Shown piece by piece: positions 38,637 through 54,952 of a DNA stretch of 64,000 nucleotides. This stretch comes from Paenibacillus xylanilyticus (GTDB taxonomy: Bacteria > Bacillota > Bacilli > Paenibacillales > Paenibacillaceae): the NCBI RefSeq assembly GCF_009664365.1, contig NZ_CP044310.1, forward strand, positions 2,057,001 through 2,121,000. Direction: 5' to 3'. Positions within the stretch are counted from its first letter, which is position 1. Every line of letters begins with the position of its first letter. Made by a program: the position numbers and the translations under genes. The notes under the pieces are model-generated. The model had not been told where the DNA came from and did not search any database. It worked only from the letters and a program-made list of their open reading frames with translations.

Positions 38637-38819
38637 GATTATGGGGAGAGAAAGCGGAGTGCTTGCAGGATCTTCTGATATTTAAATTGTATTCTCGACT
38701 AGCTATGATATTGCTGGCGTAGATTCTAGCCAAGTAAAGGCTCAGACCCTGGGAATAAACGAGCTGAAAAGTATGTTGCACCAAATAGAAAGGGATAGTC
38801 AGAGGAGGAGCCTGGTAGG

Positions 38820-39030
38820 ATAACGACTTATCGAACTATTCAAGGATAGACCTGGGACGGAATTGCTTATAAGGTGACAGGCAGTTGTAATGCCATGCCC
38901 ACTCCCGATGTATGTCAATCTCAATCATATTCACACCGTGATTTTCACGGCAGGCGTGAAATTGAATGTATAATATATTGAAGCGCAGACATCGAGAACG
39001 CTGCCATCTTGGAGGGTAGACGATGAGTAA
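38820..39030 (+). pseudogene. phage tail protein X remnant
   Basis: One frame gives ITTYRTIQG, a TAG stop, then TWDGIAYKVTGSC, which matches the start of P2-type tail protein X, a small LysM-like protein. A shifted frame then continues with FTAGVKLNV, a second stop and EAQTSRTLPSWRVDDE. At least two stops and one frameshift disrupt it. It lies between the tape measure and D remnants, as in P2-like tails. Confidence 0.75.
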
Positions 39031-39031
39031 T

Positions 39032-40065: not shown

Positions 40066-40872
40066 TTCGAATTTTGAATAAATCCCCGTACAAAACTAAT
40101 TGTAATAATTTTTTTCTGAAAATTCTCTAATATTATCTCTAGTTCAAACAACAATTGATGCCCCTATATGTTTTCAGATAGGGACTCATAGTATTCAATG
40201 GTTTCCTGTCTCTTAAACATAATTGATGTAAGCTTAGTTGAATGCTCTTTGAAAGTATATACTAAATTTGAATTTGCTTCAGGTGTAACCTTTTATTCTT
40301 TCACATCTCAGTTCTACCGTCCACGTTTTGAAAGTGGCGAGACATTCAATTAACTAATCAGCGACCTTTGTTCTTGCATCGCTTGAATTTTTTGTCTCAT
40401 TTTTATAATTCTTTTTCTGAGTCCTATTAACATTGTAGAGAACAAGTAGAGCTACGGTAAGATTGCATAAAATGATTCCTCTTCTATAGGAAAACCAATA
40501 GTTAGATAAGCAGATATGACAAGGCCGATGTATAATAATAATTTTCAACCATGGATAATTATATTATATTTCATCTCATTTGATATCTTGAAATTACCGG
40601 TGTCGCGTTTCTATCAAAATTGATCCTCCTTCGATTGAATTTCACATGAAAAGATCCTATCAGTCATGTGTGACTGTAGGACCTTTTTGTTTGAAAAGTT
40701 TCTTGATTACCGTGGATATATTAATATCATGTACAATTTGTTATACACGGCCTTTTCGGACCTCAGAGCCTTCATGAACACGTGTATTTTGAATCCGGAA
40801 TGATACATTGGATACTTTATACTGAACCGGGCCGATATTCTTTTCCCAGGATACACTGACACTGTGTCTTTG
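40066..40872. other. gene-poor AT-rich stretch of the prophage remnant
   Basis: No convincing gene is present. A 17-bp stem at 40649-40688 (AAAGATCCTATCAGTCA against TGACTGTAGGACCTTT, followed by TTTTTG) is a clear terminator-like hairpin. On the minus strand at about 40745-40865 a short frame SVSWEKNIGPVQYKVSNVSF looks like genuine but truncated protein sequence. I cannot name its family. Confidence 0.5.
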
Positions 40873-41454
40873 CTATTCTAAATTATCTACCGCATATTGA
40901 GCTTCTTCCTTCGTAAATTTTTCTCCGTACTCAGAAGTCAATTGGTCATAAATAGCGGAATCTGACATATTCATGCTCTCTGCATAATTCTGTGCCGATT
41001 TTAATGCATTTTCTTTCCAATCGATTTGGAGGTTGTCAATAGCGTATTGAGCGGCTTCCTTCGGGAAGTTTTCTCCATACTCTGAGGTCAATTGATCATA
41101 GATTCCTTGCTTGGACATATACATCATTTTTGCATAGGATTGAGCCGATTGCAATGCCGCTCTATGTTCCCGTGGAATACTATTGGCCTCGGCTTCCTTT
41201 TTAGCCAATTCTTTAGCTGCAGCTGCATCTTTCGCTTCCTGTTCTTCTGCAGCTTTTTTATCGGCCTCTGCTTGCTCTTTGTCTGCAGTTGTTTGTTCAG
41301 TTGATGAATCTTCTTTTTGGGATTGCTGGGATACTGCTTGGGCAGTAGGTTCGTTGGCTGGAGTTTCTTTCTCGCCGAGATTACCGATCACTCCGATAAA
41401 AACTACGATAGCAATCCAAAACCACCACTTCTTATAAATCGGTTTCTTGTTCAA
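40873..41454 (-). CDS. Ltp family superinfection-exclusion-like membrane protein
   Basis: The 193-aa product starts at a TTG with AGGAGG 7 nt upstream. Residues 9-26 (KWWFWIAIVVFIGVIGNL) form a membrane anchor without a lipobox cysteine. A charged Glu/Ala/Lys-rich stalk spans about 30-95. Two copies of a 45-50-aa helical repeat follow, each with the pattern ALxSAQxYAxxMxMS and YDQLTSEYGExF and ending AQYAxDNL. This is the host-cell-surface-exposed (Ltp) repeat. In Streptococcus thermophilus phage TP-J34 the Ltp lipoprotein blocks DNA injection by other phages. Here the anchor is a helix, not a lipid. It appears intact. Confidence 0.88.
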   Translation of the reverse strand: MNKKPIYKKWWFWIAIVVFIGVIGNLGEKETPANEPTAQAVSQQSQKEDSSTEQTTADKEQAEADKKAAEEQEAKDAAAAKELAKKEAEANSIPREHRAALQSAQSYAKMMYMSKQGIYDQLTSEYGENFPKEAAQYAIDNLQIDWKENALKSAQNYAESMNMSDSAIYDQLTSEYGEKFTKEEAQYAVDNLE

Positions 41455-42009
41455 GGTACTTCCTCCTATGTAATAGATAAAGATAGTCTATCAGACCTAG
41501 GTAAATGTTTCTAGATATTTTGGAACAATTACAAAAATGTCGATATGGGTTAACTATATAACTAAACCCGAAAGGATCGGTCAAGCCTCTGCTATGTTGT
41601 TCTAGTAGAGGTTTATTTTGTTAAGACATTTTGAAATCTTTCACTAACATGAATGAAATACTTAATTATAAGAAATTAAAGAGGGGGATGGTTGAAAGGT
41701 GTAATGTTAAATAGTTGGAGTTGGATTCAATGGAATTAAACAATGGAATATTACGTAGCACTTAATTGAGAAAAACGAAAACAAACATTAGCGGTTTTAA
41801 CCTAATCTAGGAGAGAGTCGCTTTTTGGCGTGTTCAAATGAATGCTTTTCTCAGAATTATGGAACTATTTAGATATTTTTATATAGGGTTATTAATATTT
41901 TTGAAATACTCTCCGATATTATACATGTTAATGATTTTGATACTATCAAAATTTATGAGAGTAATACCAGATCATCAGATTTAAATAATTCTCTGAGAGG
42001 TGGATTTCT
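41455..42009. other. intergenic region with a terminator-like hairpin at 41583-41619
   Basis: This AT-rich stretch has no supported gene. AAGCCTCTGCTA pairs with TAGTAGAGGTTT (one G-T) around TGTTGTTC and is followed by ATTTTGTT. The right end should hold the promoter of the secreted propeller gene, but none could be chosen confidently. Confidence 0.5.
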
Positions 42010-43497
42010 TTGTTTTCTAAAAAAATCTTAATGTCTTTTGCAAGTTTGGTTTTATCGGGAATGTTTTTCTTAATACCCCCAACTCATGCTGCTTCTACCC
42101 CATTTGTTCAGGGAAGTGGCTACCAGTCAGGTGCGTATGATACTGATGCAATGCAACCTACTTCTTTTAACTGGGATAGAAATTCTAGATTTGCAGGTGT
42201 AACCGAGGATGTATACATAAAATGGAGTTATACAACACCAGCACCAGGTAATGCATCCCTAATATTAGATGAGAACGGTTCTGTAATAACTAAGAGTTTT
42301 ATAGGAGGAGATCCTAAGTATTCAATACAGGCTATTAATCCTAACGGAACGCTTAAATGGGTATACAATACAAACGATGAAATGACTATGGGCTCTCCAG
42401 TAATCAATAAAGAAGATAAACTTATTATTATGGGGGCAGACAAGCTCAAATCTATTAATTTAAATGATGGTATTGGTACTGAGACTAAGTTTGGTGAAGC
42501 ATATCCTACCCAAATAGCAATAGATGATAAAGGTGTTTATTATCTAGTCGGCCCGATGAGAGTAGCAGCTTACTACCCTAATGGTACGCTTAAATGGAAA
42601 GCGAGCCATAATTATAGTCGAGGGAGCTATCCTATTCTCACTAAAACTGGATCCCTAGTATTTAAAGCTGGGAATGGTACAGCTGGATCTCTATACTCTT
42701 TTAATGCTGAAACAGGACAAAAAAACTGGGAGTATGGTTTACCTTCGAACTCCAATAACACAGCTCCAGCAGTATCCGTAGATGGTACGATCTATGCAAG
42801 TGATAGGCTTGGGTATACTTACGCTATAGATCCTACTGGAACTATGAAATGGAGTTTTAAAGCAGATGCTGCTTCGACGAGTGCTAATATAGTTGATCCA
42901 GTCGTATCTCATGATGGTACGATATACGTGGTTAATGCGACAAAGAATCTATATGCTCTTAACTCAGACGGGACGATTAAGTGGGTATATAATACGAACT
43001 ATGGTATCAATTCTTCTCCTATAGTTGATAAGAACGGCGATGTGTTTTTTTTCAGTCAGAGTGCTGCTAATGCTATAGATAAAAACGGAAAGCTAATCTG
43101 GTCCTTAAGTATAGAAGGATCAGCATTTAATTCTCCTGCGATTGCCGAAGATGGAACTATATATGCCCATGCAAACAATGGCATTTTATATGCGATTGGA
43201 GGGAAAGTAAAGCAAGACTCTGAAGACCCGGAAACGGAGATTCCTGTCGAACCTGAAATTCCATCTAGTGGGAGGGCCTTGCTAGTTATTATGCTTCAAA
43301 ACGGTGTAGAAAGAGAATATGACCTATCAATGAGTGAGGTTAATGCTTTTGTCAATTGGTACGAATCTAAATCTGGGGGAATTGGGAATATTACTTTTGC
43401 TATCGATAAGCATAGTAATAATTTAGGACCATTCAAGCAAAGAAAAGACTATATTCTATATGATAAAATTATTACTTTTGAAATAAATGAGTACTAG
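42010..43497 (+). CDS. secreted PQQ-like beta-propeller protein
   Basis: The 495-aa product starts at a TTG with GAGAGGTGG upstream. A Sec signal peptide (residues 1-27, cleavage likely after THA-A) is followed by a beta-propeller of repeated units such as GTLKWVYNTNDEMTMGSPVI, GTIYASDRLGYTYAIDPTG and GTIKWVYNTNYGINSSPIV (about 65-400). A Pro/Glu linker (about 405-420) leads to a C-terminal module of about 75 aa, GRALLVIMLQNGVEREYDLS to DYILYDKIITFEINEY. From memory this tail recurs on many Paenibacillus surface proteins. It may act as a cargo gene of the prophage. No enzymatic cofactor residues are evident. Confidence 0.85.
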   Translation: MFSKKILMSFASLVLSGMFFLIPPTHAASTPFVQGSGYQSGAYDTDAMQPTSFNWDRNSRFAGVTEDVYIKWSYTTPAPGNASLILDENGSVITKSFIGGDPKYSIQAINPNGTLKWVYNTNDEMTMGSPVINKEDKLIIMGADKLKSINLNDGIGTETKFGEAYPTQIAIDDKGVYYLVGPMRVAAYYPNGTLKWKASHNYSRGSYPILTKTGSLVFKAGNGTAGSLYSFNAETGQKNWEYGLPSNSNNTAPAVSVDGTIYASDRLGYTYAIDPTGTMKWSFKADAASTSANIVDPVVSHDGTIYVVNATKNLYALNSDGTIKWVYNTNYGINSSPIVDKNGDVFFFSQSAANAIDKNGKLIWSLSIEGSAFNSPAIAEDGTIYAHANNGILYAIGGKVKQDSEDPETEIPVEPEIPSSGRALLVIMLQNGVEREYDLSMSEVNAFVNWYESKSGGIGNITFAIDKHSNNLGPFKQRKDYILYDKIITFEINEY

Positions 43498-43605
43498 AAT
43501 TTGTGCTAAATTTCAATATGCCTCCACTCTAAAGTGGAAACTTACATTATATTATTAACTGAGTGGTATTAATTACGTTTTGTTTAAAGTGCTGATATAA
43601 AGATG

Positions 43606-43636
43606 TACCTAGTCAAATGACTGGGTATTTTTTTTG
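43606..43636 (+). terminator. intrinsic terminator after the propeller protein gene region
   Basis: TACCTAGTCA pairs with TGACTGGGTA around AA, followed by TTTTTTTT. Confidence 0.85.
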
Positions 43637-43688
43637 TTGAATAACGAACAAATATTCGCATATAATAAGCAAAACGAACAAGTGTTCT
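43637..43688 (+). promoter_or_regulatory. SOS promoter with two LexA/DinR-type boxes
   Basis: CGAACAAATATTCG (43645-43658) and CGAACAAGTGTTCT (43675-43688) flank the -10 element TATAAT (43661-43666); TTGAAT lies 18 bp upstream at 43637-43642. The second box contains a perfect GAAC-N4-GTTC, the Bacillus LexA core, and the first has one mismatch. Binding would cover the promoter from both sides. Confidence 0.8.
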
Positions 43689-43701
43689 ATTTGTTGTAGG
43701 G

Positions 43702-43890
43702 ATGAACATGCCCGTAAAATACTTGGGTTGGTTGGTGGAAATCATATATCAAGATCAATCAGGTAAGATAACAAAACGCCGCATCCGAGTCAAAAGCATA
43801 CGGTCAGGGATAATTAAAGCTGATAATCTTCTGTCTGGCCAGCCACGTACATTCCGCGAATCTGGATTACTGGCACGTTATCCAATTTAA
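43702..43890 (+). CDS. small WYL-like protein under LexA control
   Basis: The 62-aa product (MNMPVKYLGWLVEIIYQDQSGKITKRRIRVKSIRSG...) looks like the C-terminal half of a WYL domain: two strands, RRIRVKSIRSGIIKADN, then PRTFRESGLLA. Similar small proteins precede YolD/UvrX genes in SOS cassettes of Bacillota as I recall them. It starts 14 bp after a LexA box and is the first gene of that cassette. A second in-frame ATG at 43708 is possible. Function is unknown. Confidence 0.65.
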   Translation: MNMPVKYLGWLVEIIYQDQSGKITKRRIRVKSIRSGIIKADNLLSGQPRTFRESGLLARYPI

Positions 43891-43943
43891 AATAACAGTA
43901 TAGGGGAAATGCCAGATTCTAAATGATACGAAAGGAAAGTGCT

Positions 43944-44206
43944 GAGAATTTTATATAACTACAGTGGGGTAAGGAGAAGATTCCCTACACTCCATGAATT
44001 AACGATAAAGACAGGAAGAAACAAGGCTGACATTCTTGGCCGCTTTAAACGGGCACATTGCAGGTAATTACATATCGTGGGAAGACAAGTCAGACACAGC
44101 TAATACCGTTATTTTGGAGGGATGGGAGCGAGAATCTGAGCAGACTAAACCTCCAATCATTCCACCTACTCGACCAAGCGATCTGAGTTATTGGACAGAA
44201 TATTAA
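43944..44206 (+). pseudogene. frameshifted HTH protein of the SOS cassette
   Basis: One frame reads RILYNYSGVRRRFPTLHELT, then KTGRNKADILGRFKRA, which resembles the LexA-type N-terminal helix-turn-helix with an inserted turn. A +1 shift near 44040 is needed to reach ALNGHIAGNYISWEDKSDTA and the run to DLSYWTEY and its stop at 44204. An AAGGAGGG for the next gene overlaps this stop. The assignment is by pattern only. Confidence 0.5.
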
Positions 44207-44220
44207 GGAGGGAATCAGCA

Positions 44221-44551
44221 ATGGCCAAAAAGTTGATTGATAACGGCTTGTTTGAATCTTCACGACTGATTCTACCGGAGCACAAAGAGGCTTGTTAACG
44301 CAACAGGAGCAGTTAGTTAAGAAGAAAAAGCCCATAATGGATGAACAAGAGGTACAGTTGATCCAACGCGCGCTGATCGACTCTTATAACCGGCGCCTAC
44401 GTATCCTTATCAAAGTCTTTCTGTAGAGGACAAAATAAATGAAGGAATCGTATCAACGGTAAATACATACTTGAAGGAAATCAAACTAGTCTGGGGCATG
44501 GAAAGTTACCGCTTCATTAAAATAGACGAAATTATCAGCGTAAGAATATAA
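44221..44551 (+). pseudogene. yolD-like gene broken by frameshifts
   Basis: The start MAKKLIDNGLFESSRLILPEHKEA after AAGGAGGG is the conserved N-terminus of YolD-like proteins. The reading frame is then lost, but KKKKPIMDEQEVQLIQRALI in a second frame and VNTYLKEIKLVWGMESYRFIKIDEIISV in a third restore the rest of the family pattern. Two frameshifts are therefore needed to rebuild an intact protein of about 110 aa. YolD genes usually precede uvrX, a Y-family DNA polymerase; no uvrX remains here. Confidence 0.75.
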
Positions 44552-44576
44552 AGCTACTAATCTCTTCTCTGGTATG

Positions 44577-44610
44577 AAATCCGTCAGGAAAGAACTGACG
44601 GATTTTCTTT
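44577..44610 (+). terminator. intrinsic terminator after the SOS cassette
   Basis: AAATCCGTCAG pairs with CTGACGGATTT around GAAAGAA and is followed by TCTTT. Confidence 0.85.
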
Positions 44611-44816
44611 ATCGAACTACAGTGATTAATTATAATAATAAGCTGTCTTTCAAATGAAAAGACCCCAGCTTATGCCGGGGTCAAGTTGGGGACGGATCGG
44701 GGACAGAATTCACGTTTAAGCAAAGAAAGCAGTCCACTTAAAGCCATTGGTATTAGAAAAAACATTGATGTACCAGTATTTTTAGGAATTGAGGAAGAGT
44801 TGTTCTTTGTCTCCAA

Positions 44817-44863
44817 CATCGCTGGCAGCGATGAGGTCAGGGGTTCGATCCCCCTAGGCTCCA
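44817..44863 (+). repeat. partial tRNA-Ala 3' half, probable prophage attachment site
   Basis: This 47-nt stretch matches the tRNA-Ala from the anticodon stem to the discriminator base (38074-38120) at 42 positions. The differences include a compensated stem pair (G-C to A-T), one T-loop base and two acceptor bases, so it derives from another functional tRNA-Ala and not from decay of this one. No D-arm or 5' acceptor strand precedes it. A terminator hairpin (AAAACCTCTTGG/CCAAGAGGTTTT) follows at 44870-44906. Confidence 0.8.
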
Positions 44864-45087
44864 TACTCGAAAACCTCTTGGATACCAAGAGGTTTTTTGC
44901 TTTTTATGGATTTCTTTTACCCGTGTCTGTAGCCAAAATGCTCATATTATCTTACTCCCAAAAATGGATCGCACAGTAAACTTGAGACGAAGGGCATTAA
45001 AAAAACTGGGCGGAGTCTACATTGATAATGGCTCTGCTCAGTGCATAAATCCCTTTTTAATTTTTATGTAAACGCTTAAAAATTTGA

Positions 45088-45139
45088 TGGACAATAACGC
45101 AAAACTGATGTTATATTGTTTCTGTAAGAAACAATATAA
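45088..45139 (+). promoter_or_regulatory. promoter overlapped by a perfect 12-bp inverted repeat operator
   Basis: TTATATTGTTTC (45111-45122) and GAAACAATATAA (45128-45139) form a perfect dyad with a 5-bp spacer. A likely promoter has TGGACA at 45088-45093 and TATATT at 45112-45117, so the -10 is inside the dyad. The downstream MarR gene is the obvious candidate to bind it. The surrounding 44980-45258 contains no gene. Confidence 0.75.
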
Positions 45140-45258
45140 TCTTCATAGGATACTAAATTTCATTGTAAAGTGGACATGACAATGCTAACTAAATGTGCTC
45201 AAAGCTCAATGATGTGATCTCTTGGATGCTTGAGCACCATGAAAAGGATGGGATGAAT

Positions 45259-46068
45259 ATGAACCACAGTGAGACAACGATTAAATCATTTGACGGAACA
45301 CAGCTATATTTCAGCAAGGATACAGTCGAAGAGGCGAAGGCAGCCGTGGTCATTGTTCATGGGTTGTGTGAGCATGCCGGGCGTTATGATGAGTTGACGA
45401 TGCACTTAAACAAACGAGGGTGTAACGTATATCGATTCGACCATCGTGGTCATGCGAGATCTGAAGGAAAGCGTACATTCTACAGTGATTTTCACCAACT
45501 CATCGAGGATGTGAATGTCGTAGTTGATAGGGCTTTGCAAGAGAGCAATGGCCTTCCAGTATTCGTTATTGGACATAGCATGGGCGGATTTGCAACCTCA
45601 TCATTTGGCACGAAATATCCAGGCAAGGTCAAAGGTATTGTTTTATCAGGAGCACTTACCCGTTACAATACGAAGGTTGCTGGTGAGCTGCCGCTTGATC
45701 TTCCTACAGGGACGTATTTCCCGAACGAGCTTGGCAGTGGCGTATGTAGTGACCCTGAGGTTGTATCCGCTTACGCAAGTGACCCACTGGTAGAAAAACA
45801 AATTTCTGTGGATCTTTTTAATAGCCTGGGGAACGGCGTGGCGTGGTTAAAAGAACATGCCAAGCAGTTTGTGGACCCGGTGCTCGTTCTGCATGGAGCA
45901 AACGATGGGCTGGTGAGCGAACTGGATTCACGTGAATTCTACGGTGACATTGCCTCCACTGACAAAACATTGAAGATCTATGCACATCTCATGCATGAAA
46001 TATTTAATGAACCGACTAGACATGAAGTCATAGAAGAAGCAATTACATGGATTGAAAAACATATCTAA
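45259..46068 (+). CDS. alpha/beta hydrolase, monoacylglycerol lipase type
   Basis: From the ATG at 45259 (AAAAGGA 10 nt upstream) the product is 269 aa. It has an S33-type fold with VIVHGLCEHAGRYDELTMHL (oxyanion region), the nucleophile Ser107 in GHSMGG, and the acid and histidine near VLHGANDGLVSE and YAHLMHEIFNEPTRHEV. The HGxxEHxxRY motif is typical of monoacylglycerol lipases and lysophospholipases. No signal peptide is present. It is followed by a MarR regulator after 48 bp, and the pair shares an operator-bearing promoter. Confidence 0.9.
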   Translation: MNHSETTIKSFDGTQLYFSKDTVEEAKAAVVIVHGLCEHAGRYDELTMHLNKRGCNVYRFDHRGHARSEGKRTFYSDFHQLIEDVNVVVDRALQESNGLPVFVIGHSMGGFATSSFGTKYPGKVKGIVLSGALTRYNTKVAGELPLDLPTGTYFPNELGSGVCSDPEVVSAYASDPLVEKQISVDLFNSLGNGVAWLKEHAKQFVDPVLVLHGANDGLVSELDSREFYGDIASTDKTLKIYAHLMHEIFNEPTRHEVIEEAITWIEKHI

Positions 46069-46116
46069 TTTCAGTAGAGTAAAGGAAAGAGAATCTAAAT
46101 ATGAAAGGGATTACTC

Positions 46117-46638
46117 ATGAAATTAGATTGGATGGGCGACCATCGGACGCTGATTGAGAAAATTATCAAGTACGGTAATGCATATTCGAACACCTATAAG
46201 CTGCAGCGAAGCTATGGTACGGACATGATGTTCTCCGCCTCTCAGATCCAGACCCTGGAATATATTCTGGAAGCAGAGGATAAGGAGGAGAAAATGTCAG
46301 AGATGGCCGCACGTTTGGGCGTTAGCCGCAGTACATTTTCCAAAAATGTGAAGAATCTGACGGAAAAAGGCTTGCTCGAAAAATATCATTTAAGCGGTAA
46401 CCGCAAAGATATTTATGTCAAACCTTCGGCGAAAGGGCGCGAAGTATATGCAAAGTACACTGAATTTGTCCGTGAGCTTTGCTTTGACGATATCTTTAAG
46501 CATGCTGACCAAATTTCAACAGCCGACAAGGAGAGTTTTATTCGCATTATGGATCTGTTCGCCGATGTGCTGGTTTGGTATGGTGAGAAGGAACAGGAAC
46601 CGCGCAAACTCATTAAAATTGATCCGGGCAGCGATTAA
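46117..46638 (+). CDS. MarR family transcriptional regulator
   Basis: The 173-aa product has a winged helix (about residues 45-115), with AARLGVSRSTFSKNVKNLTEKGLLEKYHLSGNRKDIYVKPSAKG containing the recognition helix and the beta-wing. Helices at both ends form the dimer interface. It probably controls the lipase operon through the perfect dyad at 45111-45139, a common autoregulatory layout for the family. AAAGGGA is 6 nt from the ATG. Confidence 0.9.
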   Translation: MKLDWMGDHRTLIEKIIKYGNAYSNTYKLQRSYGTDMMFSASQIQTLEYILEAEDKEEKMSEMAARLGVSRSTFSKNVKNLTEKGLLEKYHLSGNRKDIYVKPSAKGREVYAKYTEFVRELCFDDIFKHADQISTADKESFIRIMDLFADVLVWYGEKEQEPRKLIKIDPGSD

Positions 46639-46685
46639 ATTCTAGGATTATCGATGTAAATGTATAGCTTAGAATAGGAATAAGA

Positions 46686-46715
46686 AAAATGCCCTTGAAC
46701 AAGGGCATTTTTCTG
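46686..46715. terminator. bidirectional terminator between marR and the anti-sigma gene
   Basis: AAAATGCCCTT pairs with AAGGGCATTTTT around GAAC. A- and T-runs on both sides fit two convergent genes. Confidence 0.85.
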
Positions 46716-46751
46716 CGCAATCGTTTTTTCATCTTGGTTAAGGTTTGGTTA

Positions 46752-48401
46752 CTATTTAGTGCTATGAAGTGGAATTCGTAAATCTCCATCCGGTTTCTTC
46801 GTTGTATAGTTCGATACATAAAGATCAATGTCTTTACCCTTAAAATCTTGGAACACTTCTGTATGTTTATTATCACTATCGTTGAAATACAGCGGCGTCA
46901 GATATTGCTTTTCTCCCGCATCAAGAAAATACGTTTGGTTGATCCCGCCAAATGTAGACTCAGGGCTGGACATCCCAACGTACAGGTTCCCATCCTTGAG
47001 ATAATAAGTCCAGTTAATAAGGAACCCTTCGTACTCCCTTGTTACCGTTTGTGGCTGAGTCGAAATATTCGTTAGACGAATAGACGTCTGGTCACCAGCG
47101 TGCTCATCAACTCGGTCCTTCGCAATGAAGGTTATCGGTTTGTTGGCCACAGAATTAACATCCATGAGAGACGAGGCGGACTGCTCAAATCGCAGTTCAG
47201 TCTGGTTGGGATTCAACGTGCCTTCGAGGGAAACGTATCCTTCCAACACTCTGCCGTCCACTTCCAACTGATACGTCCGATAAGGCAGTCTGTAGTAGTC
47301 TTCTTGGTGATCAATAGTTAAGCGAATCTGGGTTGGTGTCACCACTACTCCACTGATTTTAGCCTCTCCATCCAATGACTGCAGTGGAATATCCATTTCT
47401 TTCTTAACTGAACCTGTTTCCATTTGCTGTTTAGACAAGGAGAGTTCGACGTTCCAGATTCCATCTGTTCGCTCTTTCTCATGTGTATATGTGAAGGTGA
47501 AATGATCTGCTCTCTCTTTGAACTGCTGTTCGTAAAATATTTGCGTGCTGGAGTATGCTCCGGTTGCACCTTCGGTACCGAAGACTGGGCTTTCGGTTTC
47601 TTTAAGCATGTTCCCATTTGGATCATAGGCTGTGATTCTGGCCCAAGTCTGTTCCTTCAACGCCGTATCTGTAAAAGTCACGTTGGAACGAATCATGATT
47701 TGATCTTCCGTGTGCCGGAAGGATTGTACTTCTACCGTTTCGATTCCGTCCTTTTGTATATTAAATTTCTGAGTATTCGTGTCCTTGGGATCGAGTGTAA
47801 TGTCCTCCTGAATGTCTTGCAAATATCGAACACCTGTAATGGAGAATTGTAGATTGGATTGGTTCTCAGACATCACCCAGTCCGTTTCGAAGTATCCCTG
47901 ATACACACCTTGCTCTTCGTTCCATTGTTGATAATAGTGTCCTTCAATAGGCTTACCCTCACTGTCTTTCAAAACGATCTGATCATATCTGATTTCTGCT
48001 CCGTCTGTTTCCATGCCGGGTTTGATCGTATAGAGAAGGACGGTTCGGTTATCATCCACAAAAGCGTTATGCACCGTTAAGGTGACTCCGTGAGCTGTGA
48101 CGCTTTGTTCAATAGACTGACCATATCCCGCTTGGAGAGCTGACTCAATTCCGGACTTATGGGAGAGGACATCACTCCAATCATATTGAAAAGCTGCATA
48201 TACCGGAGTGGCCATTACCGCTACAGATACACCCAGGACAATAGCAACTTTCGTCTTACCGCGCTGTGATCTTTCCTTGAGCTGATCTGCTACCCGAAGC
48301 TCGTCCATCTGTATGCTGTTAAACATCTTATCAAAATCCGGATATTCAATGTGGTCTGAATGTTTCATGTGATTCTTAACTTTGGATTCTACTGTATTCA
48401 A
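46752..48401 (-). CDS. DUF4179-type transmembrane anti-sigma factor
   Basis: The 549-aa product starts at a TTG with AGGAGAG upstream and overlaps the end of the sigma factor gene by 26 bp. A cytoplasmic N-terminus (about residues 1-48) is followed by one transmembrane helix (about 50-70, KVAIVLGVSVAVMATPVYAAF) and a large extracytoplasmic region. The first part of that region (about 95-200, HGVTLTVHNAFVDDNRTVLLYTI) is the DUF4179 fold, and the rest is beta-sandwich-like. Such proteins pair with an adjacent ECF sigma factor and hold it at the membrane. The signal sensed is unknown. Confidence 0.88.
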   Translation of the reverse strand: MNTVESKVKNHMKHSDHIEYPDFDKMFNSIQMDELRVADQLKERSQRGKTKVAIVLGVSVAVMATPVYAAFQYDWSDVLSHKSGIESALQAGYGQSIEQSVTAHGVTLTVHNAFVDDNRTVLLYTIKPGMETDGAEIRYDQIVLKDSEGKPIEGHYYQQWNEEQGVYQGYFETDWVMSENQSNLQFSITGVRYLQDIQEDITLDPKDTNTQKFNIQKDGIETVEVQSFRHTEDQIMIRSNVTFTDTALKEQTWARITAYDPNGNMLKETESPVFGTEGATGAYSSTQIFYEQQFKERADHFTFTYTHEKERTDGIWNVELSLSKQQMETGSVKKEMDIPLQSLDGEAKISGVVVTPTQIRLTIDHQEDYYRLPYRTYQLEVDGRVLEGYVSLEGTLNPNQTELRFEQSASSLMDVNSVANKPITFIAKDRVDEHAGDQTSIRLTNISTQPQTVTREYEGFLINWTYYLKDGNLYVGMSSPESTFGGINQTYFLDAGEKQYLTPLYFNDSDNKHTEVFQDFKGKDIDLYVSNYTTKKPDGDLRIPLHSTK

Positions 48402-48918
48402 AACGGTTCTCTCCTCTCATGTTAACCTTCTCATAGTACTCCAGTTTCTTTCGCATCAATTTAAGAGCCTTGTGCAATCTGGATCGAACGGTACCCTGAC
48501 GTATATTGAGAATTTCCGAGATTTCCACAACAGATAGATCACCAATGTATCGCAGGGTTACAACACTTCGCAGCTTGTCAGGCAATTGGCGCAATTGCTG
48601 TTCCAATTCAGCGAAGGATAACTTAGCCATAACCATCCCATCGACCGTATCTCTAGTAAGAGCCTCGTGTTCATGCTGCTTCTGCAGATGGTCTTGTTTG
48701 TCATTTTTGACTTTGTTCTTACGAATGACGTTGAGGCAATGATTCATGGCGATTCGCATAATCCAGGCCTTGAGATGTGTAACATTTCTCCAGTCCTGCC
48801 GAAACACAGTTACAAACACATCATGGCATACATCCTCGGCATCCTGGATATTTTTGAGCATATACAAGCAGGTACGATATACATCCTTGTTGTAAGAATA
48901 GAAGAGTTCGTGCTCGGT
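48376..48918 (-). CDS. ECF-type RNA polymerase sigma factor
   Basis: The best start is the GTG at 48918 (VTEHELFYSYNKDVYR), 8 nt after AAAGGAG; the longer TTG frame at 48960 lacks a ribosome binding site. The 180-aa product has sigma region 2 (about residues 5-72, with DAEDVCHDVFVTVFRQDW and KAWIMRIAMNHCLNVIR) and region 4 (about 105-160, LPDKLRSVVTLRYIGDLSVVEISEILNIRQGTVRSRLHKALKLMRKKL). It is co-transcribed with its presumed anti-sigma factor. Together they form an extracytoplasmic-stress-type regulatory pair. Confidence 0.92.
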   Translation of the reverse strand, partial: TEHELFYSYNKDVYRTCLYMLKNIQDAEDVCHDVFVTVFRQDWRNVTHLKAWIMRIAMNHCLNVIRKNKVKNDKQDHLQKQHEHEALTRDTVDGMVMAKLSFAELEQQLRQLPDKLRSVVTLRYIGDLSVVEISEILNIRQGTVRSRLHKALKLMRKKLEYYEKVNMRGENRFEYSRIQS

Positions 48919-49163
48919 CACTTCCGCTGCTCCTTTCTTGTTGGGATATATAATAGACAAGTGAGCGCCGAAAATGATTCACTTTTTTTATCCTGTCTCT
49001 TGATAAAGAACATGTTAAGATAATCCATTATGGTTGATTGCTCATGAGTTGAACAGATTGAAAGTTACCATAAAAAGACTCGGACCGGACAGATCAACGC
49101 AAATAATGACAGGCCGCAAAACAAGTATTCCTCTATTATAGAAATCAAGGAGTGGTCAACCGT

Positions 49164-50009
49164 ATGAACTGGATTGAATCGTTGCAGAAGGCTATACAGT
49201 ATATCGAAGAACATCTACTCGAAAATGTAACAATAGAGCAGATCGCAGCACAGGCTCATATCTCGCCTTTTTATTTTCAACGTACGTTTACACTATTAAC
49301 AGATGTTACCGTATTCGAGTATATACGGCGGAGACGATTAACGCTGGCAGCACATGAACTTGTACAGAGTGAACAGAAAATTATTGATCTGGCGTATAAA
49401 TACGGGTATGACACTCCTGAATCTTTCTCCAAAGCTTTTCGCAGACAGCATGGGGTTGCACCAAGTGAGGTGCGAAAAAGCAGCACCTCAGTTAAATCGT
49501 ATAATCGCTTGGCTATTCAAGTAAATTTAAAAGGAGCGGAACCGATGGATTATAAAATTGTTGAACAGGCTGAATTTACGTTAGTTGGAATTAAGCAAGC
49601 TTACTCTTATGCAGATGGAGAGAATTTACGGGAAATCCCTAAAATGTGGGAAGAAGCCTATGCGAACGGAACAGAAGATCGTTTAATAGCATTGAATAAT
49701 GGAGCTATTCAAGGATTACTTGGCGTCTGTGTAGAGCAGACCGAGATCAAGGGGAAGCAAATGGAGTACTGGATTGGTACAGCTTATCATGGTGAAATAC
49801 CAGAAGGTTTGTCCTCCCTCACCATCCCTGCTTCCAAATGGAGTGTATTTGAAGTAAAGGGGCCTCTGCCTGAGAGCTTGCAAAATCTATGGAAACAGAT
49901 TGTTTCCGAATGGTTCCCATCTAATCCTTATGAGCATGCTGGGACACCTGAATTAGAGGTTTATGCAGGTCCTCATCATGCGCCACAAATCTGGATACCG
50001 ATTAAATAA
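49164..50009 (+). CDS. AraC family regulator with GyrI-like effector domain
   Basis: From the ATG at 49164 (AAGGAG 11 nt upstream) the product is 281 aa. The N-terminal 100 residues hold two helix-turn-helix motifs (IEQIAAQAHISPFYFQRTFTLLTD and IIDLAYKYGYDTPESFSKAFRRQHGVAPSEVRK). Residues about 125-280 form an integron-associated/GyrI-like domain (YKIVEQAEFTLVGIKQAYSYADGEN to TPELEVYAGPHHAPQIWIPIK) that binds small hydrophobic effectors in the Rob/BmrR group. It probably controls a multidrug or stress response. A NUDIX gene starts 10 bp after its stop. Confidence 0.92.
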   Translation: MNWIESLQKAIQYIEEHLLENVTIEQIAAQAHISPFYFQRTFTLLTDVTVFEYIRRRRLTLAAHELVQSEQKIIDLAYKYGYDTPESFSKAFRRQHGVAPSEVRKSSTSVKSYNRLAIQVNLKGAEPMDYKIVEQAEFTLVGIKQAYSYADGENLREIPKMWEEAYANGTEDRLIALNNGAIQGLLGVCVEQTEIKGKQMEYWIGTAYHGEIPEGLSSLTIPASKWSVFEVKGPLPESLQNLWKQIVSEWFPSNPYEHAGTPELEVYAGPHHAPQIWIPIK

Positions 50010-50019
50010 GGGGGTGAAG

Positions 50020-50493
50020 GTGATAACTTCGAAATTTCATCATCTGGCAAGAGGAATTATAATCAGTCAGGATCAGGTTCTGCTCGCCCATGCCATTGGT
50101 CATCAAAATACGTTCTTGCCAGGAGGTCACATTGAATTTGGTGAAAGCGCACCGGATGCCCTAAAAAGAGAAATCGAAGAGGAACTGGGGCTGTCATGTT
50201 ACATCGATGGATATTTAGGCTCCGTAGAGCATCGGTGGGAGAAAAATAAGGAGCTACATTGCGAAATGAACCAGGTTTTCAGAGTGAAAGTCCCTGAACT
50301 GGATCTGTTACAATCTCCTGTATCTCTTGAGTCTCATATTGAATTCTATTGGGCGTCTGTGTATGAGCTTGCTGCGCATCATTTGCAGCCTTATCCCTTC
50401 CGCAAGTTAATCCCACAGCTTGTCAGAGGAGATACATCAATATGGTGGGAAAGTACGTTGAAGGATGGAATAACAGCGGATAATATCGAATAA
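50020..50493 (+). CDS. NUDIX hydrolase
   Basis: The likely start is the GTG at 50020, just after AAGGGGG; a longer frame would overlap the AraC gene. The 157-aa product has the complete NUDIX box GHIEFGESAPDALKREIEEELGL (Gx5Ex7REUxEExGU) at about residues 38-60. The substrate, a nucleoside diphosphate linked to X, cannot be assigned. The gene probably shares a transcript with the AraC regulator upstream. Confidence 0.9.
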   Translation: MITSKFHHLARGIIISQDQVLLAHAIGHQNTFLPGGHIEFGESAPDALKREIEEELGLSCYIDGYLGSVEHRWEKNKELHCEMNQVFRVKVPELDLLQSPVSLESHIEFYWASVYELAAHHLQPYPFRKLIPQLVRGDTSIWWESTLKDGITADNIE

Positions 50494-50581
50494 GGTTCTA
50501 CTCTAGTTAGGGGAGCGAGAGGAGTTCACTCCGTTCAATGTTGTTTTCTATATTTTGAAGATGGAGATGTTCCAAAGCCTT

Positions 50582-50672
50582 TCAATACCCTTCATCAACA
50601 CCTTAGTTCAATATCTTAGGTCAACACCATTTTTTAAAACCATAGATTAACACCTTTCATTAATACCTTTTT
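50582..50672. repeat. seven-copy imperfect 13-bp tandem repeat
   Basis: Copies begin at 50582, 50595, 50608, 50621, 50634, 50647 and 50660, exactly 13 bp apart. Each begins TYAAYACC or a one- to two-base variant (TCAATACC, TCAACACC, TCAATATC, TCAACACC, TTAAAACC, TTAACACC, TTAATACC) followed by five mostly A/T bases. The array is non-coding and lies between the NUDIX gene and the putative replication module. Confidence 0.85.
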
Positions 50673-50706
50673 ACAAGGAACAAAAGTGTCTCAAAAGGCT
50701 TGATCC

Positions 50707-50757
50707 ATAAGGGCTTCTGTATCTGGATAAATTTAGATATGGAAAGCCCTTATTTTT
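50707..50757 (+). terminator. hairpin with T-run downstream of the 13-bp array
   Basis: ATAAGGGCTT pairs with AAGCCCTTAT, with a second inner TATCT/AGATA helix, and TTTTT follows. It may terminate the AraC-NUDIX transcript. Confidence 0.7.
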
Positions 50758-50903
50758 ATGCAAAATGATAACGGTAAGGTACACATCAGGAAACGACAAA
50801 CCAACACGACATGAATTAAAATACCCATTAATGATCCATGCATCCAAATGAACAAAATCAATATAAACATTACCTATGCTACAAAACCACATGAGATAAA
50901 ACG

Positions 50904-50912
50904 TTATCCACA
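50904..50912 (+). promoter_or_regulatory. perfect DnaA box
   Basis: TTATCCACA is the consensus DnaA binding site. It lies in a 370-bp gene-free stretch (50758-51129) downstream of the 404-aa winged-helix gene. A GGGATT/AATCCC dyad with an inner GAAGT/ACTTC pair sits just to its right at about 50931-50966. Confidence 0.65.
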
Positions 50913-51037
50913 GCTTTAGTGGCGAAATTGGGATTCACAGGAAGTTATGAGATGACTTCAATCCCGCCATTTAAAGTGCAAATCTTACTAAATCCAACGA
51001 TAAGCTTACAATAACGGTCAAGTAGAAAAAACAAATA

Positions 51038-51069
51038 GCAGTCATTCTACTTTTTCGTAGAACCACTGC
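51038..51069 (-). terminator. interrupted 11-bp stem downstream of the winged-helix gene
   Basis: GCAGT and TTCTAC pair with GTAGAA and ACTGC, separated by a 2x2 internal loop, around TTTTTC. On the minus strand it is followed by TATTTGTTTTTT, so it can terminate the 404-aa gene. It may alternatively be part of an origin structure. Confidence 0.6.
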
Positions 51070-51129
51070 AACACAAGTTAGACTGAAATGGATCATATGG
51101 ATGCACAAATAAATCTAACCCTATAGAAA

Positions 51130-52344
51130 TTAGACGATGTGCGCTTGAGATCGAGTATTTTTTTGTCCATTCATATACTTCTCAATTTCCATTTTGATCT
51201 CCAGGATTGGAGCTGGAAGAGTTCTGATCCGGTAATAATGCTGGATAAACCATTCCGGATGTTGTCTGAAACGATTAAGCCAGCACGAATGGATGAGACG
51301 AAGTTTGTCCCACACTTTAACTTGTTGGCTATGCGCTGCTTCCATTAGTTCTTGATTGAGCATGGAGATCTCATCATTGGCAGAGAGGTTGGTCTCCGCC
51401 ATGTGTTTTTTCTGCTTGATCTGCTCAAGCTCCGCAGATAGTTGTACCGCATAGTTTAACTCGGCTGATTCCATAACGGACCGAAAATAAGCACTGATCT
51501 CATTCAGTTCGTTCTTTTCATCATTCACAATATAGGAAGAATCTTCTCTGTAGATCATGTTAAAGAAGGTCTGTGACCGTCTTTTATAATTTTGGATGCT
51601 AAAGAGGGCATGGTCGAAAATTTCAGTTGCATACTCATATCCAAATTTCGCATAGTAATCTTCCATGACTTTTGCTATTTGCCAAACCGCTTTCCGGGAT
51701 ATAAAGTCACAACAAAAACGATGCTTCATCAGCTGTTTGGTCACCCACAGCTCAGCACCTTCAGAATAGATTTCACCCATGTCAATCCATTTGGAGTGAA
51801 CGTTCAGTACTTGGAAGTTTTCCGTATGTATTTTGATCTTCAGATATTTGGAAGCCTTCTTAAGAATCGTAATCGCTTCTTTTGGCGTTCGTATATTAAG
51901 AAGTCCAGTTGGCCCATAAAGATCATTAATGTAACCCCAGCGGAAATTGCCTGGAATATAGATAAGCTCTTTGCCAACGTAATGAAGCACAAAGCGTTGA
52001 ACATTTCGGTCCTCAGACAAAAACTCATCGCATGTAAAGAAGGCAAAATTTTTGGCATAGAGCGTTTCCTGTGAAACTTCCGCTTGATCACGTACAAAGA
52101 TATAACGGTCAAAGAACAATGTACCAGCGTTATTGTAGTGAATAATACCCTCGTGTTCTAACTTGTGGAGAAGAATTCGGATTCGATAAGTGGAGGTACC
52201 CATTCGTTTAGCGAGTTCGGTCTGAGAAAGAGGAACTTCTCCACCATATGCGCAAACGGTACCCAGCAGGAGTTTAAGTTTGAAAAGCAAACGAGTATCA
52301 TGATGTAGGGTCTGTGCATCGAATAGATCAGGATGGTGTTTCAT
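51130..52344 (-). CDS. winged-helix protein with a replication-control-like leader, unknown family
   Basis: I do not recognise a family for this 404-aa protein. Residues about 38-80 form a clear winged helix (LSQTELAKRMGTSTYRIRILLHKLEHEGIIHY). The remainder is mostly helical, rich in aromatic and basic residues (FRWGYINDLYGPTGLL, KRRSQTFFNMIYRE), with a probable coiled coil at about 290-345, and is compatible with a second DNA-binding or oligomerisation domain. The ATG has AAGGAG 8 nt upstream. Its predicted mRNA leader of about 240 nt is crossed by an antisense RNA gene, and iterons lie further upstream. A role as plasmid-type replication initiator or copy-number regulator is inferred from context only. 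Confidence 0.75.
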   Translation of the reverse strand: MKHHPDLFDAQTLHHDTRLLFKLKLLLGTVCAYGGEVPLSQTELAKRMGTSTYRIRILLHKLEHEGIIHYNNAGTLFFDRYIFVRDQAEVSQETLYAKNFAFFTCDEFLSEDRNVQRFVLHYVGKELIYIPGNFRWGYINDLYGPTGLLNIRTPKEAITILKKASKYLKIKIHTENFQVLNVHSKWIDMGEIYSEGAELWVTKQLMKHRFCCDFISRKAVWQIAKVMEDYYAKFGYEYATEIFDHALFSIQNYKRRSQTFFNMIYREDSSYIVNDEKNELNEISAYFRSVMESAELNYAVQLSAELEQIKQKKHMAETNLSANDEISMLNQELMEAAHSQQVKVWDKLRLIHSCWLNRFRQHPEWFIQHYYRIRTLPAPILEIKMEIEKYMNGQKNTRSQAHIV

Positions 52345-52402
52345 CTGCGCCTCTCCTTAACTCCCAACTGTAAAAATGGGTATGGAAAATAAGGGTTTTG
52401 GC

Positions 52403-52543
52403 TTTTGTTTTTTTAGAAGACATGCTATAATGAACACATCAAAAAAGAAGCAAGACCAAGACCCCGACTTTTCGTGGTTTTAATAAGTGCCAGTCGCCAA
52501 ACTATCCACTTATTAGAACGATATCGTTGGGTTCTTTTTTTTT
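52403..52543 (+). ncRNA. predicted antisense RNA with its own promoter and terminator
   Basis: TTTTGT (52403-52408) and an extended -10 TGCTATAAT (TATAAT at 52426-52431) are separated by 17 bp. The RNA would begin near 52438. It contains a perfect AATAAGTG/CACTTATT stem (52482-52514) and ends with AGAAC/GTTCT followed by nine T residues at about 52543, giving about 105 nt. No protein start with a ribosome binding site is present. It runs opposite to, and within, the leader of the 404-aa gene. Confidence 0.65.
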
Positions 52544-52587
52544 ATTTAAACAGAGATGTTTATTAGCTTTCCATTTACTATAAATAG

Positions 52588-52616
52588 ATTATAGCATCCG
52601 TCTATTTAATTGGGAA
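52588..52616 (-). promoter_or_regulatory. extended -10 promoter for the 404-aa gene
   Basis: On the minus strand TATAAT (52593 to 52588) is preceded by TGC, an extended -10. A weak TTCCCA is at the -35 position. Transcription would start near 52580 and give a leader of about 240 nt. The leader contains ACCA/TGGT pairing at about 52455-52478 followed by CTTCTTTTTT, a possible attenuator. Confidence 0.5.
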
Positions 52617-52627
52617 CACCATGAAAA

Positions 52628-53160
52628 GTACGAGAAATGCGTAATAAAAATAGAAATGAAGAACGAAACGTAATTTGAAGACCATACATATAGTACGAGA
52701 AAAAAGTTAGAAAATTAAAAATAGGGCTACAAGCTTGCATTTAGGTTGTACTCGACACCACTAGAACTTTTTTTTGGTCTTTTTAGTACGTGGAATTGGT
52801 AATAATTTTATTAAGGTACGAGTTTTGAGTAATAATTATTAGAAAGTACGAAAAATAAGTGAGAATTGCGTTAATATTTAGGTCGGTACCCTATAGCGTC
52901 AAGCTTGAAACACCGAATCCAAGTACGAGTTTTTCGTAATAAAAATGAGACTGTCTTTTCAGTGCTTTAAATATTGTGAATAATTAATTAAAGTACGAGT
53001 AAAAAGTAAGAAAATGAAATCAGGTACGTTGTTTTCGTAATAAAATAATGGAGTCGAATCACACGAATGGCGCTGCAGAGGGATATTTATTTTTATTACG
53101 AAATGAAGTACGAAAAAAAAGTAATAATATAATGTCAGTACGAGAAATGAGTAATAAAAA
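52628..53160. repeat. iteron array: nine direct and one inverted copy of a 23-bp repeat
   Basis: Each copy starts GTACG and has GTAAT (or GTAAG, GTTAG, GTGAG) beginning 13 bp later, then an A-rich end. Direct copies start at 52628, 52693, 52786, 52816, 52846, 52923, 52993, 53024, 53108 and 53138; an inverted copy (about 53089-53111) shares its GTAC with the one at 53108. The best copies, 52628 and 53138, differ at one or two bases. Four neighbours are 30-31 bp apart, about three helical turns. The interval is AT-rich and has no credible gene. Counting the inverted copy there are eleven in all. Confidence 0.85.
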
Positions 53161-53260
53161 TTCAATCAAGCAGCACTACAAAAAGTTAACATTCCTAATC
53201 ATCAGGGTAGATGGGGCTGCAGGAAAACCTATATAAGCAAAAAAAATAGGAGAATGAGGT

Positions 53261-54763
53261 TCATTCTCCAATAAGTTCAGTCTGTATAGGAAAGGTAAGC
53301 TGAATAGGCGGCTCGGCTTGATCGAAAAAGTCATGCATTTCCGTGTGTGTTAATGGAATAAACGAGATCTCAAAAGAGGAATGAAGTCGTTTATAATCGG
53401 CAATCAGGAAATTCAGGCTTTTGAACTCCTCAAGCGCGTCCTGGATCTTTTTCATGTTTTGTTCCGTTTTTCTTTTGTCCATTCGCACTTTACGCAAGAA
53501 GTAGCTGAGCGGGAAGATATCGATGAATTGGTTCCCTTGTACATACCGCTCCAGACGCTCTTTCTGTAATGCATGTACCAAAATTTTAGAGATGTTTCCT
53601 TCAATGGAGTTGAGGCTGTCTCTATAGATTTTGACGGTCTGTTGATTAATGTATTGCTGGTGGAAGTACGTACCGATGACAATTTCGGCATAACGTCTGC
53701 CATTGGGATTGGAGTTGATGACAACCGAGTCAAATATGGACCAGTCGGCAGAACCGGATCTTGCTTTTTCAGACTTCTTCTTAATCACGGCTTGGAAGCC
53801 AAACGACCTGATTTTACGCAATCTTTTCTCAATCTCAACGTAGTTTTTAACCCCAGAAGAATTATAAGCTTTGCTGACCAGCTTGGATATATCAACCGTG
53901 ATCGTCCGATCCGTGTAAAAGGATTCATCCTTTTGGGAAAGGACATAGAAAATAATATCCCGATCCGTACCATCCAGTGATTTCGTAAGGCTTTTATCCG
54001 CGAGCAGGAAATCTCCATCCTCCACCTTGATAATGGTGCGCAGGAACTCATTGTCACTGATCTCATAATCATCAAAATAGGTTTGTTTGTTGGTGATTTC
54101 ATCTAATTCCATTCGGATCTTCAGGTTAGTTGATTTTTCCGCAAAAACGACATCTTCGATCAGGCCATGAGGCTGCACATCGACTGCATTGGTTAGGTCG
54201 TGTTTATCAATAATATCAGCCACAATAAAGTGCAGATCGGTGTCGATGGCCTTTTTGATCTGATTGGTTTTTTTACTCGACAAGTAACGATAGTCCGTGA
54301 GGTAGGTGGAGCTGGTGGTTGCCCACTCACTAATCTGTTGCAAGCGTAAAGCGGGTAAATCATTCAGGTCCTTTACGCCAATCAATCTTTCGGATTCAGC
54401 AACGATATCCAACCCCGCATTTGATGCTTTCATTTGCTCCAGCGCAAGTTTCCAAGAGCTAATCTCAATCAGAACCGGATTGTTTGGCACCGAATCCAGT
54501 TCCTCTTTAAATTTCTTGAGCCAATACTTTTTGCTCTGTTGTCTTTTGCGATAATTTTTATCCCGAATCTCAACGTGATCTTCCAGATGAGGCGTATCAA
54601 ATCCAAAATTCTGAATTAAGAGTTCCTTGATCAGCTCAAACAGCCACGTCTCTTTTGAGGTGCTGGTCGTTTCCTTGTATACATACATGTATAGATGATC
54701 GACAATTCTTGGCGGTAAGCACTCAATTGTCTTGGTAATTGCAAAAAGCGAAAGTTTAACCAT
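53261..54763 (-). CDS. putative iteron-type replication initiator protein
   Basis: The ATG at 54763 (after AAGGGAG) gives 500 aa; an ATG at 54769 is too close to the ribosome binding site. I infer two winged-helix regions. The first (about residues 250-350) contains DFLLADKSLTKSLDGTDRDI, then ITVDISKLVSKAYNSSGV and IEKRLRKIRSFGFQAV. The second (about 385-490) contains EGNISKILVHALQKERLERY, then FLRKVRMDKRKTEQNMKKIQDALEEFKSL. This resembles RepA/Rep_3-like and RctB-like initiators in layout, but sequence identity to any was not tested. It ends 100 bp from the iteron array. No helicase or nuclease motif is visible. Confidence 0.7.
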   Translation of the reverse strand: MVKLSLFAITKTIECLPPRIVDHLYMYVYKETTSTSKETWLFELIKELLIQNFGFDTPHLEDHVEIRDKNYRKRQQSKKYWLKKFKEELDSVPNNPVLIEISSWKLALEQMKASNAGLDIVAESERLIGVKDLNDLPALRLQQISEWATTSSTYLTDYRYLSSKKTNQIKKAIDTDLHFIVADIIDKHDLTNAVDVQPHGLIEDVVFAEKSTNLKIRMELDEITNKQTYFDDYEISDNEFLRTIIKVEDGDFLLADKSLTKSLDGTDRDIIFYVLSQKDESFYTDRTITVDISKLVSKAYNSSGVKNYVEIEKRLRKIRSFGFQAVIKKKSEKARSGSADWSIFDSVVINSNPNGRRYAEIVIGTYFHQQYINQQTVKIYRDSLNSIEGNISKILVHALQKERLERYVQGNQFIDIFPLSYFLRKVRMDKRKTEQNMKKIQDALEEFKSLNFLIADYKRLHSSFEISFIPLTHTEMHDFFDQAEPPIQLTFPIQTELIGE

Positions 54764-54952
54764 AACCATTCTCCCTTAAAAAAACTTCTCCTTAAAAATA
54801 TATCATAACTTCATATCCATTAGTTGAGGGATTATCATGGAAAAGGATTTAGTTTAGGAAAATAAACCATTTCCTATTCTATGAGGCTAGAGGACAACGG
54901 CCAGCCTCGTCGAACCATTAGTAGTAGTTGGAAAAAAAGGGGAGACTAATAA

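Follow-up and report, generated by a model that had tools for sequence, protein, structure and literature searches.

Background

In plasmid R1 the origin oriR1 lies downstream of the initiator gene repA, the loops of R1 and ColIb carry UUGGCG, and IncI plasmids have a loop-to-leader pseudoknot. A bacterial chromosome is generally taken to have a single active origin, and one would not expect an intact plasmid replicon to be kept at the same chromosomal position in several species. Here we describe a unit of this kind in a 64-kb stretch of Paenibacillus xylanilyticus (positions 2,057,001-2,121,000 of its contig; hereafter the window), which spans ~4.2 kb and encodes two initiator-like proteins, Rep and a winged-helix protein (WH). 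Its anatomy, conservation, RNA covariation, kinship with plasmids and chromosomal synteny were obtained by computational analysis. The unit is almost certainly a plasmid-type replicon. On balance, we favour reading it as an intact, composite theta-type plasmid replicon resident in the chromosome and likely to be a replication-competent ancillary origin held down by its own circuit.

The closest described systems each share part of this organization. In R1, an antisense RNA limits the initiator and the origin contains a perfect DnaA box (PMC5883639). The RepA-PFP/RepJ replicons of Pseudomonas consist of exchangeable REx-C and REx-R modules, and a syntenic chromosomal repJ homologue of P. syringae, PSA3335_1080, failed to replicate in the absence of such a control module from a plasmid and has been suggested to have a non-replication role (PMC5304414). 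The Paenibacillus unit resembles these replicons in modular exchange and in having a syntenic chromosomal initiator gene; unlike the chromosomal repJ as described there, it retains a predicted control RNA, iterons and an origin-like site. Of the two Vibrio cholerae strains with naturally fused chromosomes, NSCV1 and NSCV2, one has an active ori2 and the other a silenced one (PMC6284228), indicating that a plasmid-type origin within a chromosome can be active or silent. The Paenibacillus unit likewise places a plasmid-type origin within an oriC-bearing chromosome, but NSCV1/2, as that source describes them, are whole-chromosome fusions in single strains, whereas here a ~4.2-kb replicon alone is conserved across species.

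Anatomy of the two-initiator unit

The unit and its features are listed below in window coordinates. Invariance refers throughout to an alignment of five Paenibacillus species (the window genome G000, together with G012, G047, G022 and G072; contigs of 0.39-6.45 Mb).

50,582-54,769, minus strand: whole two-initiator unit, ~4.2 kb
53,261-54,769, minus strand: rep, encoding a 502-aa iteron initiator-like protein; the real start is possibly codon 3
53,249-53,269, minus strand: hairpin resembling an intrinsic terminator, where rep ends (the scan as a whole gave 2 terminators, no excess over the shuffle mean of 3.5)
52,628-53,157, minus strand: array of iterons with ten CGTAC cores; of the 50 positions in these cores, 49 are invariant
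52,588-52,616, minus strand: predicted WH promoter, TTCCCA-17-TATAAT preceded by TG (the scan as a whole gave 15 promoters, no excess over the shuffle mean of 13.5)
52,345-52,549, minus strand: WH mRNA leader with hairpin I (UUUGGCG loop), helices 2:3 and 1:4 and a Shine-Dalgarno sequence, the pairing being supported by covariation
52,433-52,545, plus strand: predicted antisense RNA with terminator (stem ends at ~52,534, T-run to ~52,542), ends placed by eye; expected length ~105 nt, from a start near 52,438
52,423-52,431, plus strand: extended -10 of the antisense RNA, TGcTATAAT, by eye, in a region largely conserved in a 14-row leader alignment
51,130-52,344, minus strand: gene for WH, a 404-aa second initiator-like protein with two winged helices (residues ~1-185) and a helical C-terminus
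51,038-51,069, minus strand: putative CIS/terminator-like hairpin past the WH stop codon, by eye
50,904-50,912, plus strand: perfect DnaA box TTATCCACA, 9 of 9 positions invariant
50,704-50,757, no strand assigned: long inverted repeat between DnaA box and 13-mers, by eye
50,582-50,672, plus strand: seven contiguous 13-mers TYAAYACCTTNNN, by eye, a candidate DNA unwinding element

An earlier note on this DNA had proposed a plasmid-like replication module within the chromosome, made of a ~500-aa protein of initiator layout, about ten iterons, a 404-aa winged-helix protein, an antisense RNA over the leader of the latter, strong inverted repeats, a perfect DnaA box and 13-bp repeats. These parts were recovered, the antisense RNA as a prediction from fold and conservation, and the iterons in dispersed rather than tandem arrangement.

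The structure model of Rep is a double winged helix whose best structural matches are RepE/RepA/RctB-type initiators. Pfam Rep_3 and RPA profiles remained below cut-off (RPA, E 0.036, 14.1 bits against 27 required), Rep3_N matched one of 16 Rep family members (0.0044), and no RepA_N domain was present for Rep or WH among Pfam matches up to E 1. The model supports the initiator layout described in the earlier note. Rep shares this modeled fold, and adjacent same-strand bipartite iterons, with Rep_3/RepE-type initiators (F RepE, pPS10 RepA, R6K pi); Vibrio RctB is among the best structural matches, and the fold of RctB domains 2-3 is perhaps shared too. Unlike these, Rep has no Pfam match at cut-off and carries an extra N-terminal part of ~240 residues, and next to it lies a second initiator-like gene that has a putative control RNA and an origin-like site of its own.

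Eight of the ten iterons in the rep-WH spacer are exact copies of TTAC-N8-CGTAC, all on the minus strand, and only one further exact copy occurs, on either strand, in the other 409 kb examined. The same sequence is found 8-10 times per spacer, on one strand and always with N8 spacing, in seven spacers from three genera that were selected for close Reps. A looser pattern (TATTAC-N5-9-CGTAC) is unspecific, since it matches 19 times in the whole genome, 12 of them outside the module, and its reversed control matches 30 times. It is the fixed N8 spacing that discriminates the module iterons.

Pairing in the WH leader was assessed in 17 leaders merged to nine lineages, with L064 excluded (46% WH identity, leader not recognisable). 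Own pairings exceeded permuted ones (P 0.0001, 0.0002 and 0.0004), and both sides had changed in 11 of 27 pairs, compared with 3.6 in shuffles (0/500). The fold of the sense leader is not exceptional (z -1.57, 14/200 shuffles), whereas the antisense strand (52,433-52,545) folds better than 200 of 200 shuffles (z -3.59). A simple promoter and terminator scanner returned neither a promoter nor a terminator for the antisense RNA, and both were called by eye; conservation supports these predicted elements, and the region 52,370-52,545 is 0.92 invariant. A mini-ORF (open reading frame) starting with GTG, which might encode a tap-like leader peptide, was seen by eye in hairpin I of several leaders, with no clear ribosome site. 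A loop-to-leader pseudoknot was considered and dropped; the complementarity is present in the window, but shows no covariation (P 0.63).

The DnaA box is the only perfect one in the window and one of seven in 410 kb. Tandem Repeats Finder reports just 2.6 and 1.9 copies of the 13-mers; lag-13 matching exceeds 300 of 300 shuffles in the window and is positive in 12 of 12 sequences (0/300 each). The CIS-like hairpin, located where a CIS element would be expected, was seen by eye in 10 of 16 downstream regions and in none of three distant WH relatives, and the long inverted repeat was not seen by eye in the downstream regions of the plasmid relatives. Within the five species, 79% of positions are invariant in the hairpin region (51,037-51,075) and 89% in the stretch around the inverted repeat (50,700-50,765).

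This second half of the unit (leader switch, CIS-like hairpin, DnaA box and 13-mers) resembles the copA-repA-CIS-oriR1 arrangement of R1/IncFII and of the IncB/IncI complex, in that an antisense RNA is predicted over the initiator leader and an origin-like site with a DnaA box, here joined by a 13-mer array, appears to lie downstream of the initiator gene. The earlier note had not pointed out this likeness. Sequence homology to those replicons is undetectable. No IncFII RepA family was present for Rep or WH among Pfam or NCBIfam matches up to E 1, the three Rfam cmscan matches to E 5 included no plasmid control RNA (three relatives gave 0 gathering matches), and the fold search lists contained no IncFII RepA or RepA_N structure, which is not proof of absence. 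The unit further differs from R1/IncFII in its Gram-positive hosts, and from IncI plasmids in that the pseudoknot is unsupported.

Selection on the chromosomal copy

We conclude with high confidence that the unit is under selection on the chromosome, where it is not decaying. The Rep and WH ORFs are open in all five species. Among the five copies, the ratio of nonsynonymous to synonymous substitution rates (dN/dS) is 0-0.009 for Rep, at synonymous divergence (dS) of 0.16-0.83, compared with 0.07-0.13 for WH, 0.03-0.14 for the flanking AraC gene and 0.09-0.16 for the flanking amidase gene. A broader comparison used 22 gene queries, of which an ECF sigma gene was recovered in no genome, and covered G022 around the module only. 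Relative to G072, Rep has a dN/dS of 0.0087; of the other window genes recovered, 20 in all, 14 have higher values, among them polA (0.025) and dnaE (0.076), and accD, pyk, citZ, icd, pstB and nrdR have lower ones. The invariant fraction of Rep codon positions 1, 2 and 3 is 0.96, 0.99 and 0.62. Conservation extends to noncoding sites, with 0.93 invariance in the iteron cores against 0.63 in the remaining spacer, and 0.83 in the 13-mers; two other downstream stretches have 0.58 and 0.42.

Relatives on plasmids and modularity

Homologues of both proteins, in the same gene order, occur on large plasmids. WH matches seven of 72,556 plasmid records (68-82% identity), all of 367-543 kb, and Rep matches 32 records in the same set, each below 60% identity. 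The megaplasmids of Paenibacillus and Brevibacillus (pART37, pY5S7-1, pPPM1a, pSC2 and that of B. halotolerans) share its gene order, type of leader and downstream origin elements, but their Reps are 27-31% identical to that of the chromosomal unit, their iterons differ, and both proteins are annotated as hypothetical. The order of Rep, a spacer of ~0.5-2 kb and a second gene of 294-523 aa is found on plasmids of Paenibacillus, Brevibacillus, Virgibacillus, Pontibacillus and Lachnospira, and also of Priestia, Niallia, Exiguobacterium, Jeotgalibacillus and Alkalihalophilus. This order is not kept on Rossellomorea and Aneurinibacillus plasmids, where the neighbour is a hypothetical gene, located upstream and oppositely oriented. 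Once the WH plasmids are set aside, no second protein resembles WH convincingly in sequence; among those compared, the one from Priestia koreensis comes closest (E 0.006).

Within the genus, WH is present in 12 of 75 genomes (E<=0.001) and Rep in 10 of 75. The family holds WH in 15 of 394 genomes, one of them marginal, and an order-wide sample holds Rep in 15 of 392 (E<=1e-10). The chromosomal clade has P. terrae as its sister in the Rep tree and pART37/pY5S7 in the WH tree; the two halves of the unit, Rep with its iterons and WH with its leader and origin elements, have therefore probably been exchanged. The P. terrae-type plasmid has the iteron code of the chromosomal unit, and pART37 has its antisense loop. 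Among the matches listed from the open-licence literature, no title or abstract opening described such replicons or copies of them on chromosomes.

Chromosomal setting

The host contig is single, 6.45 Mb long, with dnaA at position 27, and ORFs named from sequence in the window include dnaE, accA/accD, pyk, citZ-icd-mdh, phoPR, polA, mutM, coaE and nrdR; the unit is therefore chromosomal, as the earlier note had held. All five species have AraC and nudix genes on one side and an amidase gene on the other, the nudix gene being a partial remnant in P. xylanilyticus (G072). Housekeeping genes share the module contig in G012, G047 and G072, the three relatives fetched on that side. No plasmid remnant was found beyond the replicon: a 24-kb segment (38.5-62.5 kb) had no match by megablast, which detects high identity only, among the 72,556 plasmids, and ten neighbouring proteins matched no mobile-element family in Pfam, including integrase, resolvase, relaxase or partition protein. 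A clean empty site was not found in three genomes sharing the AraC gene and two sharing the amidase gene, which provide no usable junction because that one gene is all they have in common.

The 20-kb bin from 2,091,000 (window 34,000-54,000) has a GC content of 0.415, compared with 0.458-0.503 in the other nineteen bins, and the low-GC stretch past nrdR looks as if it were acquired or variable.

Copies in a second genus

Of 13 genomes from a second genus of the order (g35), five carry Rep together with a second protein; two of the five are single contigs, of 8.0 and 8.4 Mb. The copies (L117-L121, from G490, G489, G510, G469 and G491, respectively) have Reps that are 89-98% identical and second proteins of 510-526 aa. 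TTAC-N8-CGTAC iterons are present in all three copies checked, and a palindromic double DnaA box, TTATCCACATGTGGATAA, occurs in four of the five spacers, with a near copy in the fifth. Comparison of flanking ORFs of >=150 aa in stretches of ~20 kb identified one shared neighbour (98%), between G489 and G469, implying at least four contexts in five species. The G490 copy is flanked by sugar-transport genes. In three single-contig genomes the distance from dnaA to the module is ~33-37% of genome length (G000, 2.109 Mb; G490, 2.851 Mb; G489, 4.967 Mb); with three points, this similarity may be due to chance.

Proposed mechanism and alternative explanations

We infer DNA binding, RNA switching, origin firing and a benefit to the host in the following model. 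Rep would bind TTAC-N8-CGTAC with one winged-helix domain per half-site, controlling initiation as RepE/RctB-type proteins do. WH would be a second initiator made in limiting amounts. Hairpin I and helices 2:3 and 1:4 would keep the ribosome site accessible, and the antisense RNA would pair with the leader starting from the UUUGGCG loop, disrupt these helices and stop WH translation. Locally made WH could then act past the CIS-like hairpin at the DnaA box and melt the 13-mers, as RepA of R1 does at oriR1. Because oriC already provides about one copy per cell, such an ancillary origin would normally be held down.

That the unit fires on the chromosome under some condition is somewhat less likely than not. 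The GC-skew check suggested in the earlier note gave no origin signature; skew is +0.06 to +0.12 in 20 of 20 20-kb bins over 410 kb, with no local inversion, and any firing would therefore be rare, late or conditional. The ancillary-origin reading offered in that note is compatible with the data and unproven. Rather unlikely, on present evidence, is the further step that two or more lineages of the order each made a megaplasmid replicon, by separate domestication, into a permanent, self-limiting second origin of the main chromosome. If true, the unit would join iteron/Rep and antisense-RNA/initiator copy control, which are normally alternatives, and from its position 33-37% of genome length away from dnaA in the three single-contig genomes it could help to rescue replication of the distal replichore or bring it to completion.

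The main rival, which we regard as unlikely, is an incompatibility shield in which chromosomal Rep, iterons and antisense RNA block related megaplasmids in trans, with firing a by-product or absent. These three are among the best-conserved parts, related megaplasmids circulate in the genus, and each of the five host genomes has a single Rep-family match. The second WH-type element of P. xylanilyticus G072 (L041, contig C96), present alongside the chromosomal module, has a different antisense loop. However, a shield has no need of WH, the DnaA box or the 13-mers, yet the WH coding sequence (dN/dS ~0.1) and both sites are conserved. This conservation of origin-like elements and WH, and not just of the trans-acting parts, leads us to favour replication competence over a pure shield. 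Only 5 of the 70 other genus genomes have a related Rep, two of these on known plasmids, so that genome counts have no statistical power here.

It is quite improbable that Rep and WH have been co-opted as transcription factors or nucleoid proteins, with the iterons as operator. The extreme conservation of chromosomal Rep would fit such a role, as would the non-replicative function suggested for the P. syringae repJ homologue (PMC5304414), but exact iterons are confined to the module in 410 kb, apart from the one N8 copy elsewhere, and neither control RNA nor origin-like elements would need to be conserved. Still less probable is a unit that alternates between chromosomal and extrachromosomal forms or is an integrated mobile element. 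The several contexts of the g35 pair and the differing nearest relatives of Rep and WH, which indicate exchange of modules, are consistent with mobility; the ten neighbours lack integrase, resolvase, relaxase and partition proteins, and the Paenibacillus unit occupies the same site in five species, with no clean empty site found. A decaying relic of an integrated megaplasmid, the other reading in the earlier note, is the least probable and was rejected on dN/dS and site conservation, for although plasmid ancestry is clear and the replicon alone remains, the ORFs are open in all five species, Rep dN/dS does not exceed 0.009, the iteron cores are 93% invariant and the control circuit is under purifying selection.

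Replicon family in Bacillota

The initiators of Bacillota megaplasmids are mostly annotated as hypothetical, or unlisted, in the records examined. For these plasmids (up to 1.44 Mb) we propose an anatomy in which a Rep/iteron code is combined with an R1-like, antisense-controlled second initiator and its origin, which would enable replicon typing, mini-plasmid vectors and incompatibility tests in Paenibacillus. The 1.08-Mb plasmid of Priestia megaterium and the 1.44-Mb plasmid of Niallia taxi (L046, L049) carry a family Rep and large repeat arrays, with 7-mer counts of up to 32 and 12, respectively, where the plasmid table shows no genes.

Distant WH relatives (L074-L077, 28-33% identity) look like a WH-only plasmid replicon. 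The leader, downstream DnaA box and 13-mers are kept in L074, L076 and L077, genes for a type IV coupling protein and an M50 peptidase are close to L074, and the WH relatives P. sp. MAEPY2 and P. taichungensis had no Rep in the genus search.

A phage origin of the unit was rejected; among 50,697 phage records two match Rep (Clostridioides difficile phages, ~25% identity) and none matches WH, and two scans of viral contigs found no relative. Reps of ~25% identity are encoded by C. difficile plasmids of 127-136 kb (L078) and by two phage records, CP011970 and OR397124, and this initiator family may therefore also serve some phage-plasmids. At each of the loci L024, L026, L027, L079 and L081, the replicon has a stalk-domain gene no more than a few kb away, and in three of the five, recA and PhoH-family genes are nearby as well.

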